Virus record (IMG/VR): IMGVR_UViG_3300013094_000353
Coordinates: 1-20,540 of that record
From: a virus
DNA length: 20,540 nt
Strand: one strand, 5' to 3'
In this document: in pieces, positions 16,754 to 20,540 of the stretch
Layout of the letters: each line of letters opens with the position of its first letter
How positions within the stretch are numbered: the stretch's first letter is position 1
Notes under the pieces: model-generated
Databases searched by the model: none
Told to the model about the DNA's origin: nothing
What the model saw: the letters and a program-made list of their open reading frames with translations, nothing else
Translations under genes and position numbers: made by a program

Positions 16754-17303
16754 TCTGGCGAAGGAGAACATCCAAGTCAGAACCAAAAAAGCTCGAGACT
16801 GGCTCAGAAGAAACGTAAGAACTCTTCAAACCAGCAGAAGAAGTATTCTATCTGCAACCGATAACATATTCGCAAAAAGAATTATTGTAGGAAAGATGTA
16901 TTTCTATTCCTATGATCCAAAATTAAAAGATGTACTTCCATACTATGATCGTTTCCCATTGGTGATTCCAATTGAAAATTACAGTGATGGGTTTCTTGGT
17001 TTAAATTTACATTACATTTCATCAAAACATCGTTTAGCTTTATTAGACAAACTTTATGGTCTTTTAAACAATAAGAATTTTGATGAAACAACAAGAATGA
17101 GAATCAGTTATAATATCTTAAGCGGTACAAGAAGATATAAAGAATTTGCTCCATGTCTAAAAAGATATCTGTATTCTCATTTAGATTCTAAAGTTGTTGA
17201 GGTTGCACCTGACGATTGGGAAATTGCAATTTTCCTACCAGCAGAACAATTTATTGGAGCCACAGCAACTAAAGTCCAACGTCAATCTCTAAGGCAATTC
17301 TAA
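16722..17303 (+). CDS. Conserved-looking phage protein of unknown function downstream of gp4 (gp2 position candidate)
   Basis: This 193-residue protein starts inside the gp4 gene (32-base overlap) and ends in a TAATG junction with gp54. Residues 1-45 are basic and helical (KARDWLRRNVRTLQTSRR at 23-40). The centre has a compact ordered block, GKMYFYSYDPKLKDVLPYYD (57-76), then RFPLVIPIENYSDGFLGLNL (77-96). It reads like a motif I have seen in T4-like marine phages, but I cannot name the family. The C-terminal part is mixed helix and strand, with a basic end. T4 has gene 2 (DNA end protector) next to gene 4, so a DNA-end or head-neck role is one reading. No sequence match to gp2 was established. 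Basic N-terminal residues would suit DNA binding. Confidence 0.8.
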   Translation: MASLIEKVRDNLAKENIQVRTKKARDWLRRNVRTLQTSRRSILSATDNIFAKRIIVGKMYFYSYDPKLKDVLPYYDRFPLVIPIENYSDGFLGLNLHYISSKHRLALLDKLYGLLNNKNFDETTRMRISYNILSGTRRYKEFAPCLKRYLYSHLDSKVVEVAPDDWEIAIFLPAEQFIGATATKVQRQSLRQF

Positions 17304-18235
17304 TGGCTATTAATTTAAATCCTGTTGGTATCACTAATCCTGATACAATTATTCAACAAAATATCAATAACATTACAGGAAGCATAGAAAGTTCGGTTAC
17401 GAGAAATATAAGAAATCCTGTTTTGGCTGGAGCAGCACAATCATTATTGGGGGCAATTCTAGGAAACAATCAAAACACATCAGCAAATTTCCAAGCTCCA
17501 TCTAGTCAAACAAACCAAAATATATCAAACATAGCTAGACTGTTTAGCGAACTAGACAATAGATCAGAATTTTCAAAATCATGTAAATTCTTAGTCAATA
17601 TACCTAATCCTCCATGTATAAAAAATTATGCTGGAGTTGGGCTAACATCACCATCTCTACAGTTCGCATGTCATACTGCCGAATTACCAGGTGTAAATCT
17701 ACATCCTATTGAATTTAGACATAATGCATTCACACAAAGAGTTGCACATTTTCCAACATTTGATCCAATCACTCTAACATTCTATTGTTTCGGTGATATG
17801 ATTGAAAAGAATTATTTTGAATATTGGCTTAGTTATATGCTTGATTTTCAAAGCGGTCTTTTAAATTATCCAAGAGACAAAAACAATCAGCCTGTTTCTA
17901 TGACAGATATTTCAATAACTGCTTATACGAACTCTGGACAACCAAATTACATAATTAAACTTTTTGATGCATTTCCAATCTCAATAAATGCTATGGGATT
18001 AAACTGGCAAGAAGACAGAATACATGAACTCCAAGTAACTTTTGCTTATACGAAATGGAGAACTGGATTCACTGATGCTAATCCGAATTTCCCAGTTGGA
18101 TCTGGAATTAATATTCCTGAAGGAAAATCATCTAATCCTAATGCTGGCTTAAATGGTTCTGTTTCTCCTTCTGTATCAATTCCAGCTATCAACCCATCTA
18201 CCCTAAACTTTTCTCCTCCTCCGACAATTAAATAA
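17303..18235 (+). CDS. 54: Baseplate tail-tube initiator gp54
   Basis: This 310-residue protein (T4 gp54 about 320) forms the ring on which tube protein gp19 polymerises. The gp19/tube fold is visible from residue 90: SKSCKFLVNIPNPP, a loop with SLQFACHTAELPG, FDPITLTFYCFGDM (about 153-166), GLLNYPRDKNNQPV (about 189-202), DAFPISINAMGLNW (about 221-234) and HELQVTFAYTKWRTG (about 242-256). These parallel T4 GLRALPQDV, CIPISVSAPELSY and TFDVTFAYRVMQAG. Residues 1-85 are a poorly conserved Asn/Gln-rich helical arm, and the C-terminal 50 residues are Ser/Pro-rich and probably flexible. It overlaps the preceding gene by one base. Confidence 0.88.
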   Translation: MAINLNPVGITNPDTIIQQNINNITGSIESSVTRNIRNPVLAGAAQSLLGAILGNNQNTSANFQAPSSQTNQNISNIARLFSELDNRSEFSKSCKFLVNIPNPPCIKNYAGVGLTSPSLQFACHTAELPGVNLHPIEFRHNAFTQRVAHFPTFDPITLTFYCFGDMIEKNYFEYWLSYMLDFQSGLLNYPRDKNNQPVSMTDISITAYTNSGQPNYIIKLFDAFPISINAMGLNWQEDRIHELQVTFAYTKWRTGFTDANPNFPVGSGINIPEGKSSNPNAGLNGSVSPSVSIPAINPSTLNFSPPPTIK

Positions 18236-18249
18236 AATAAGGTGACTAT

Positions 18250-18987
18250 ATGAAATTGCCAAAAATTGAAACTCCGATATATCAGGCAAAATTGCTTTCT
18301 ATAAAAGAACCAGTGATGTTTAGACCATTTCTGGTTAAAGAACAAAAATTGATGCTGCAGATTGTAGAAGAAAGAGATCCAAAAGAATCAATTAAAATTA
18401 CAAAAACAATAATTAAAAATTGTTTGCTAGATCAGTCAATTGACGTTGATGCTCTACCATCGGTCGATATTGAAATTCTATTTCTGAATTTCAGAGCCAG
18501 ATCAATGGGAGAAAATCTAGATGTCTTTTTTAAATGTAAGAATTTGGTTGGTGATGGAGAAGAGAAAAAAGAATGCGGAATGGTTATTGAATCCTCAATT
18601 AACCTACTAGAAGTTCCAGTGGCAAATCAGGATTATAACAATAGAATTATGATCTCTGATGACATCGGGATACAAATGAAGTTGCCAACATTCGAGATAG
18701 TGGAAAGTATTGCAAATGTTGACGCTAATGTTGAAAACTCAGAATTCAAATCTATAGCAATGTGTATTGATTTTATTTTTGAAAAAGAAAATGTGTACTA
18801 CGCTAAAGATGCTACATTGGAGGAATTGATAGAGTTTATAGTGCAGCTTCCTCCTGAAAAATATGAGCTTATAACTAAATATTTCAATAATATACCGATA
18901 GTTAGAAAAGAATTAGATAAAGAATGTCCAAAATGCGGATTTAAGCACAACTTTGTGCTGGAGGGTCTCAACGATTTTTTTATCTAA
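18250..18987 (+). CDS. 26: gp26-like baseplate hub / tape-measure chaperone protein (zero-frame product)
   Basis: This 245-residue product (T4 gp26 about 208) belongs by pattern to the T4 gp26 hub-assembly family: an N-terminal strand with FRPFLVKEQKLML (24-36), a helical LPSVDIEILFLNFRARSMGE block (69-88), a Cys strand VFFKCKN (92-98) with C109, and a terminal zinc-ribbon half CPKCGFKH (226-233). C96, C109, C226 and C229 could bind one zinc ion. A strong AAGGTGA site (18239-18245) precedes the ATG at 18250. The family is thought to act in hub/tape-measure assembly rather than as a large virion part. The last codons before the stop hold a T7 run, and a second frame continues past it. The longer product is described separately. 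No separate gene 51 follows, although T4 has one here. Confidence 0.82.
   Translation: MKLPKIETPIYQAKLLSIKEPVMFRPFLVKEQKLMLQIVEERDPKESIKITKTIIKNCLLDQSIDVDALPSVDIEILFLNFRARSMGENLDVFFKCKNLVGDGEEKKECGMVIESSINLLEVPVANQDYNNRIMISDDIGIQMKLPTFEIVESIANVDANVENSEFKSIAMCIDFIFEKENVYYAKDATLEELIEFIVQLPPEKYELITKYFNNIPIVRKELDKECPKCGFKHNFVLEGLNDFFI
18975..18981 (+). promoter_or_regulatory. Candidate -1 programmed ribosomal frameshift site (T TTT TTT)
   Basis: Seven T residues lie in the zero-frame phase GA-T TTT TTT ATC TAA, the X XXY YYZ arrangement that lets two adjacent Phe tRNAs slip back one base. The zero-frame stop (18985-18987) follows two codons later. Seven bases after the run, CTTTGG (18989-18994) can pair with TTAAAG (19005-19010). 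This is a weak six-pair stem with two G-U pairs, at a spacing usual for frameshift stimulators. RNA polymerase slippage on the T run is an alternative route to the same product. Confidence 0.72.
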
Positions 18988-19184
18988 GCTTTGGTAATGA
19001 TGGGTTAAAGGACTATTACAGTTTAAATTTCTCTCTCCTTTATCACCATAAAATTGATTTTAGAATTTTCGATGATATGATTCCTTGGGAAAAAGACATT
19101 TATATTGGAATGTTATCCAATAAAATTAAAGAAGAACAAGAAGCGGCAAAACTGAGAGAAATGCAGATAAAGACTAGAAGGTAA
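18981..19184 (+). CDS. Frameshift extension of gp26 (tape-measure chaperone T-like part)
   Basis: After a -1 slip on the T7 run, the frame reads 67 further codons (TAT CTA AGC TTT GGT ...) and stops at TAA 19182-19184, giving a 311-residue fusion. This frame is open only from 18945, and its first ATG is deep inside the conserved-looking part (in FDDMIPWEK). It therefore has no credible start of its own and seems to exist only as an extension. The content is protein-like: KDYYSLNFSLLYHHKI, then MIPWEKDIYIGMLSNKI, then a charged helix EEQEAAKLREMQ. The aromatic YY-LNFSL-YHHK and PWE-IY pattern is one I associate with T domains of phage tail chaperones; that link is from memory. The strong AGAAGG site for the next gene lies in its last codons. 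Confidence 0.75.
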   Translation, partial: YLSFGNDGLKDYYSLNFSLLYHHKIDFRIFDDMIPWEKDIYIGMLSNKIKEEQEAAKLREMQIKTRR

Positions 19185-19188
19185 GTAA

Positions 19189-20540
19189 ATGGCTACGGCT
19201 ACAGGTTTTTCTATCAAATCTCTTGTTTCTACAATTAGACAACAAGATCCAAATATTGACGTCAAAGACGCCAAAGAAATTGCTGAACAGATTAGAAACA
19301 ATATTATGAAGTCGTTGGTTGGCGAAAGAGTCACATACACCAGAAAAACGTCTGCAAAAAGTAAAGAAGAAGCTCCAAAAAAAGAAAACAAAAAAGAAGA
19401 TAAAAAAGAAACCTACAGAACTCCTGATGGTAAATTCTCATCATTTAATAAAATGGTTGAAGGTGGATTAAAAGAAATCAGAAATGATCTTAAAAAGAAT
19501 ACAAGTGGAATATCGACTATTGAGAAGAATTCTAATGAAATCGGAAAAGACATTAAAGAAATAATTAAAAATATTAATTCTGAAAGAGTTTCTAAAAGTA
19601 AAGACGTACAGCAAGAAAAATACAAGCTAATTAATCCTAGAGTAACAGTAGAGAAAGACAATCAAGAAATGACTGGTGAAAGAATGTCACCGTCAGGAGT
19701 TCTATCACAAATTAAAAAAATACAAGAAGAAAATTCAAATAAATTAGTAGATCTTGCGAAAGACGTAAAGTTTATAAAGAATAAAAGTGAAGAACAAGAC
19801 AACCAAACAAAAGAAGCAAAAGAAGCTGAAAAGAAATATGCTTTAGAAGATTTAAATAAAAAGCTAGACAGTATTTTAGAGAAATTGAGTAAAGATAAAA
19901 AAGAAAGTATATTTGATATTTTTTCTAATCTTTTAGGAAGCACATTTAAAAGTGCACTAGGGATAATCACAGGAATATTAACTTTAAATTTTGGTACAAT
20001 AATGAGGGCACTTGCTGACATAGGGTCTTCTTTAGTTCAAGCTGGAGCTAAGGGGCTTAGATGGTTAGGAGCACTTGCTGTCGAGAATCCTGTTGGCGCT
20101 TTAGTTGTTGGAACTGCAGCTGTAGCAGTTGGTGGTGCAGCATATCAAGCAAATAAATCAGGTGATCTTGAACAACAAATACTTAAAGCTTCCGCATTAG
20201 GCGATAAGAAAAAAGTAGAAGAATTAGTTAGACAAAAGAAAAGAACTGACATCATGTTTGATCCTGGTGCAGAATATGGAGTTGGAGAAACTGATGCTGT
20301 AGAGGTTGAAGCTGATATTGAAAAACAAACTAAAGAATATCTTGGTAGAGGCGAAGATCTAAGAAAAAACATCAACAAGAATTGGGAAATGTTAAAAAAT
20401 GAGTTAGATGCGTGGATTGATTCTCAACAAGATGTCACAAGTGAATATAGAGAAAAATTAAGAACATGGTATATGTACTACTATGATGTTTGGAAAAAAG
20501 AATTTCCGACTGATCCACCAGATATAAACTCTTTCATAAG
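19189..20540 (+). CDS. Probable tape-measure or hub-core protein, C-terminus outside the window
   Basis: The frame is open for 450 residues from an ATG at 19189 to the window edge. A strong AGAAGG site (19176-19181) precedes it, and it lies four bases after the gp26 extension stop. Residues 1-50 are helical. About 50-75 is a Lys/Glu-rich low-complexity stretch. About 80-240 is charged helix with heptad-like spacing and probable coiled coils (KIQEENSNKLVDLAKDV, LNKKLDSILEKL). About 241-323 is hydrophobic (FSNLLGSTFKSALGIITGIL, NPVGALVVGTAAVAVGGAAY), and the remainder is charged helix with WEMLKNELDAWID. A long helical rod with a membrane-competent segment right after a G/GT-type chaperone fits a tape measure (T4 gene 29 position), but no sequence match was recognised. 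Any lytic domain would lie beyond the edge. Confidence 0.68.
   Translation, partial: MATATGFSIKSLVSTIRQQDPNIDVKDAKEIAEQIRNNIMKSLVGERVTYTRKTSAKSKEEAPKKENKKEDKKETYRTPDGKFSSFNKMVEGGLKEIRNDLKKNTSGISTIEKNSNEIGKDIKEIIKNINSERVSKSKDVQQEKYKLINPRVTVEKDNQEMTGERMSPSGVLSQIKKIQEENSNKLVDLAKDVKFIKNKSEEQDNQTKEAKEAEKKYALEDLNKKLDSILEKLSKDKKESIFDIFSNLLGSTFKSALGIITGILTLNFGTIMRALADIGSSLVQAGAKGLRWLGALAVENPVGALVVGTAAVAVGGAAYQANKSGDLEQQILKASALGDKKKVEELVRQKKRTDIMFDPGAEYGVGETDAVEVEADIEKQTKEYLGRGEDLRKNINKNWEMLKNELDAWIDSQQDVTSEYREKLRTWYMYYYDVWKKEFPTDPPDINSFI

Follow-up and report, generated by a model that had tools for sequence, protein, structure and literature searches.

Genes 26 and 51 of the phage DNA analysed here very probably form a single gene for a tail assembly chaperone of the lambda G/GT type, read through a programmed -1 frameshift. 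The window, which is the whole stretch of 20,540 nucleotides of IMG/VR record IMGVR_UViG_3300013094_000353, contains a gp26-like gene and an extension in the -1 frame that overlap at a slip heptamer. The core frameshift claim is supported by the invariance of this heptamer, conservation at silent sites of the junction, purifying selection ahead of the first start codon of the extension frame and the lack of any exception among about 154 distinct loci. These sequence comparisons favour the proposal of an earlier note on this DNA, in which gp26 was read as a frameshifted chaperone gene of the G/GT type.

Gene anatomy and identity of the extension

The features of the region are as follows.
17303 to 18235, + strand: upstream tail tube gene (phrog_45, E=3.5e-31; PF06841, E=3e-6, just under the cut-off)
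18250 to 18987, + strand: gp26-like gene with a zero-frame product of 245 aa, proposed as the short form TAC-N of the chaperone (PF12322, phrog_150, AF2)
18952 to 18984, + strand: block of 11 codons at the end of gp26, identical in DNA in the window, L006 and L007
18960 to 18965, + strand: GGAGGG, SD-like candidate stimulator (anti-SD energy -9.8 kcal/mol in the window)
18975 to 18981, + strand: slip heptamer T TTT TTT (X XXY YYZ), zero frame GAT TTT TTT
18975 to 19184, + strand: -1 frame extension (FF, 67 aa and stop), proposed part of the long form (phrog_634, tblastn, dN/dS)
18985 to 18987, + strand: gp26 zero-frame stop TAA, one codon past the heptamer
19077 to 19079, + strand: first ATG of the extension frame, within the conserved DMIPWEK motif
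19189 to 20538, + strand: start of the putative tape-measure gene, which runs off the window (phrog_2337, E=0.016)

The zero frame of gp26 ends in the window as ...CTC AAC GAT TTT TTT ATC TAA. The run of seven T forms an X XXY YYZ slip site one codon before the stop, as the earlier note had read it, and the coordinates given there for the -1 frame all hold: this frame is closed by the TAA at 18942-18944, opens at 18945, passes through the slip site and ends with the TAA at 19182-19184, and the following gene starts four bases on, at 19189. The extension frame of the window contains no ATG, GTG or TTG until the ATG at 19077, 31 codons past the gp26 stop, which agrees with the earlier remark that no ATG precedes the middle of the conserved motif. 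Translation of gp26 residues 1-244 together with the -1 extension gives a fusion of 311 aa, the proposed long form TAC-NC.

The 245-aa product matches PF12322 (T4_baseplate) over residues 9-244 (E=8e-50; 169.9 bits against a curated cut-off of 24.5) and phrog_150 (E=7e-54). AF2 gave a confident model of gp26 (pLDDT 93). A Foldseek search of the PDB with this model placed the HK97 chaperone 2ob9 at rank 2 (probability 0.66, E=1.0) and also returned YqbN 3klu (E=8), which we take to be a tail-chaperone-type protein; neither match is significant, and together they give only a hint of a chaperone-type fold. No solved relatives of gp26 were found by sequence. A zinc-ribbon-like CPKCG motif is located near the C-terminus of gp26 (CxxC at residues 226-229 of the product of 18250-18984). 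This motif is common to T4 gp26 and is missing from several cyanophage homologues.

The gene order is tail tube, gp26/51 and putative tape measure, and this position fits G/GT chaperones. The putative tape-measure assignment rests mainly on relatives, several of which show tape-measure profile matches in the gene at the same position (E=4e-8 to 2e-5). The gene in the window has a weak direct profile match and a central hydrophobic segment. The corresponding product is 789-797 aa long in the near relatives L003 and L005 (797 aa in L005), and its N-terminus differs in L007.

The statement in the earlier note that no gene 51 is present proved wrong. The 67-residue extension, taken with the two slip-site Phe, matches phrog_634 'baseplate hub assembly catalyst' (gp51) at E=1e-17 and covers positions 56-117 of the 121 in the profile. 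Matches to the extension were also obtained by tblastn in 477 phage records, mostly from cyanophages, where the matching stretch is often labelled as a separate gp51. Judged by these alignments, the extension is homologous to the C-terminal part of gp51, and gene 26 contains gene 51 as its frameshifted half. The extension is no unknown domain in the slot of gene 51. A separate full-length, in-frame gene 51 in the T4 arrangement was not found in the 20.5-kb fragment, which was the scope of the search for a second copy, and the extension is reachable only in the -1 frame. In the annotated records that were fetched the extension is a separate CDS or is unannotated, and none of them joins the two frames. 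The extension is predicted to be helical. Profile and structure comparisons had both been suggested for it; the former gave the phrog_634 match, and a fold search with the extension model gave no matches.

The product of T4 gene 51 has a PF12322 match at residues 1-201 (E=4e-52) and a phrog_634 match in its last 100 residues, whereas T4 gp26 matches PF12322 and not phrog_634. In T4 the short and the long form are therefore encoded by two genes, and T4 gp51 looks like a gp26-like domain fused in frame to the extension. The separate gene 51 of T4 to which the earlier note referred is thus not an unrelated gene. The comparison of the gp26 profile with T4 gp51 by hhalign gave a short zinc-ribbon match only, and the clear answer came from the Pfam and PHROG profiles.

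Conservation of the slip site and selection on the extension

The heptamer T TTT TTN (N is C in 70 loci, T in 29 and A in 3) was identified at the 3' end of gp26 in 102 of the 102 loci found mainly with gp26, which comprise the window, named phages and IMG/VR contigs. It lies 0-3 codons before the gp26 stop and exactly one codon before it in 83 of these loci. The -1 frame runs into the extension in all 102, two contigs ending before the extension does. A second search, started from the extension, found the heptamer in 80 of 80 loci, 60 of which are not near the earlier loci. The two sets overlap: 182 loci were read, of which about 154 are distinct. Alignment of the junction in relatives, a check suggested earlier, thus found the phase of the T run and the overlap kept in both sets (102/102 and 80/80). 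Since the extension query opened with the two slip-site Phe and the LEG..FF motif was among the gp26 patterns, neither search was blind to Phe-Phe, a point that the codon tests address.

The first Phe codon is TTT in 94 of 94 dereplicated loci, against 65.0 expected from the usage of each gene, and the codon preceding it ends in T in 94 of 94, against 58.8 expected. The joint log10 probability of the two biases is -37 under the assumption of independent loci, which are not strictly independent. In the rest of gp26, T TTT TTN occurs in frame at 23 of 21,414 codon positions, and 6 of the 102 Phe-Phe pairs there have the slip form; the contexts of these pairs may recur in part. Three loci carry TTTTTTA, which changes Phe to Leu in gp26 and keeps the heptamer. 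These tests argue against the heptamer as a by-product of a conserved Phe-Phe. The last 11 codons of gp26 are identical in DNA (11/11) in the window, L006 and L007; in the gene body 55-58% of the codons for shared residues are identical.

Homologues of gp26 with a -1 extension containing the motif ..PWH.. were also observed in seven distant phages, namely Ackermannviridae and similar Vibrio and Pseudomonas phages (L025, L026, L027, L028, L029, L031 and L035), which were read separately. Their slip sites are less canonical (e.g., GAA ATT TTC ATT TAA or x CTT TTT), and the extension is often unannotated or called hypothetical.

Alternatively, the extension could be a small gene 51 of its own, with translation beginning at an internal start codon or by reinitiation after termination at the gp26 stop; we consider this reading improbable. 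The extension is annotated as such a gene in syn9, S-PM2, P-SSM2 and other phages, and an ATG occurs within about 9 codons past the slip site in 31 of 92 scored loci. Many cyanophages have such an early ATG, and a separate small gp51 may exist in them. However, the first ATG in the window and its near relatives lies 31 codons past the gp26 stop, inside the conserved motif (L007 is an exception, as TTG and ATG occur earlier in its extension frame), and the stretch ahead of this ATG is under purifying selection. The dN/dS values of this stretch are 0.18-0.26 in the window clade, and the other two frames before the first ATG show no consistent pattern of the purifying kind; as 31 codons are few, the dN/dS result taken by itself is suggestive. 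Desulfovibrio phage 7757 (L021, an unannotated record) speaks most clearly against an independent gp51, since its extension frame lacks ATG, GTG and TTG throughout. In addition, the annotated starts vary between phages, and an independent gene leaves the invariant heptamer unexplained. Many 'gp51' entries, annotated from various start codons, are probably incorrect.

Transcriptional slippage on the T run, which would produce mRNAs with an altered number of U and a fusion translated from the edited messages, is very improbable. The window does have a run of seven T, but six T followed by C are found at the slip site in about 70% of the loci, and a run of six T is short for polymerase slippage. 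All loci moreover show the codon phase X XXY YYZ that tandem tRNA slippage requires. A sequencing or assembly error in a plain in-frame fusion, for which homopolymer runs are error-prone and of which eight or six T had been named as the sign, is ruled out for all practical purposes, since the exact junction of the window recurs in the near relatives L003-L008, which come from several metagenomes, the arrangement is also found in deposited phage genomes and no in-frame fusion of gp26 and the extension occurs among the 182 loci (about 154 distinct).

Proposed mechanism and candidate stimulator

With regard to slippage, its rate, the role of the SD-like sequence and the chaperone function, we infer the following scheme for the programmed frameshift. 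Most ribosomes would halt at the gp26 TAA and release the 245-aa short form. A minority would slip back one base on T TTT TTT, where the Phe tRNAs of the P and A sites could re-pair on TTT TTT, and would produce the 311-aa form with the gp51 domain at its end. By analogy with lambda gpG and gpGT, the domain present in both forms would form a coat on the tape-measure protein, and the tail tube subunit would be recruited by the extension. The upstream SD-like GGAGGG probably pairs with 16S rRNA and so increases slippage, as happens in dnaX.

A gap of 10 nt separates the GGAGG core of this element from the heptamer. Over the 27 nt that precede the heptamer, anti-SD pairing has a mean of -6.88 kcal/mol, compared with -5.25 +- 0.13 kcal/mol in synonymous versions. 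The excess was also obtained in the second locus set (-6.15 vs -4.75 +- 0.17 kcal/mol expected) and with one locus per 50%-identity cluster (29 clusters; -6.54 vs -4.95 +- 0.27). The Glu of the LEG motif is encoded by GAG in 48 of 72 cases, against 16.7 expected, and GAG before Gly elsewhere amounts to 22%. The element is not universal: GGAGG or GAGGG is present in only 48 of 94 loci, and about half lack the core. A role as a start signal for the extension was rejected, as no start codon of the extension frame was found 3-15 nt after GGAGG/GAGGG in the 48 loci.

The weak stem-loop to which the earlier note had pointed after the slip site does not stand out in the window, where it is indistinguishable from synonymous shuffles (z about +0.4 and -0.01 for the longer stretches). 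The family as a whole shows some excess of downstream structure, with a mean z of -1.27 and 37% of values below -2, compared with 8% in controls. No correlation indicating a trade-off between SD strength and downstream structure was found. A strong hairpin is located just 3' of the slip site in S-PM2 (L016), with a stem of about 13-14 bp (-16.8 kcal/mol for a 70-nt stretch), and P-SSM2 (L030) has a strong hairpin just past the slip site, unlike the window. The stimulator may differ from clade to clade. In the window the upstream SD-like GGAGGG is the likelier, dnaX-like stimulator and a better candidate than the downstream stem-loop, and its effect on -1 frameshifting is testable. The dnaX gene of E. 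coli slips on A AAA AAG, with an SD-like sequence about 10 nt upstream and a strong downstream hairpin. The spacing of the SD-like sequence is alike in the two genes, but the counterpart of the dnaX hairpin is undetectable in the window.

Relation to known chaperone systems

The tail assembly chaperone genes of T4-like phages, which we take on the present domain analysis to be 26 and 51, were reportedly identified by Vladimirov, Gautam and Davidson (2022, Virology 566:9; PMID 34826709), as indicated by the title of that paper. The frameshift idea is therefore not new, which limits the novelty of the present analysis. Passages citing that paper state that some T4-like phages have a short gene and a longer fusion gene (PMC10885494) and that the chaperone genes of T4-like phages are known to carry poly-T slip signals (PMC12846349). 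To judge from these passages, the frameshifted gp26/51 variant is probably covered in the 2022 paper, which likely holds much of the return of T4-like phages to the frameshift rule. A 2016 review described the G-T frameshift as widely conserved in long-tailed phages except T4 (PMC5009743). The frameshift reading would bring the cyanophages, KVP40, Aeromonas phage 65 and the clade of the window back under the rule of frameshifted chaperones. In a broader form, to which we give even chances, genes 26 and 51 of most T4-like phages would be one ancestral chaperone gene with a frameshift, whose main stimulus is an SD-like sequence inside the gene at a fixed distance, and T4 would be the exception in which frameshifting was replaced by gene duplication and fusion.

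T4 gp26 and gp51 follow the same logic of a short and a long form as the window and belong to the same families (PF12322 and phrog_634). T4 differs in having two separate genes, 26 and an in-frame 51, whereas the window has one gene with a slip site for both forms. The 3' end of T4 gp26 (GAG TTC TTT GAG TTA CTA TAA) contains no slip site. The lambda gpG/gpGT system (PMC5009743) resembles the window in its slip site at the 3' end of the short open reading frame, its start-less -1 extension and its location just before the tape measure. It differs from the window, where the heptamer is T TTT TTY and an SD-like element lies upstream. The chaperone frameshift of Vandenendeviridae and Andersonviridae uses GTTTTT (PMC12846349). 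These phages share with the window a poly-T slip and a -1 extension that is annotated as a separate hypothetical gene, but they belong to other phage families, and the window carries the full tandem heptamer.
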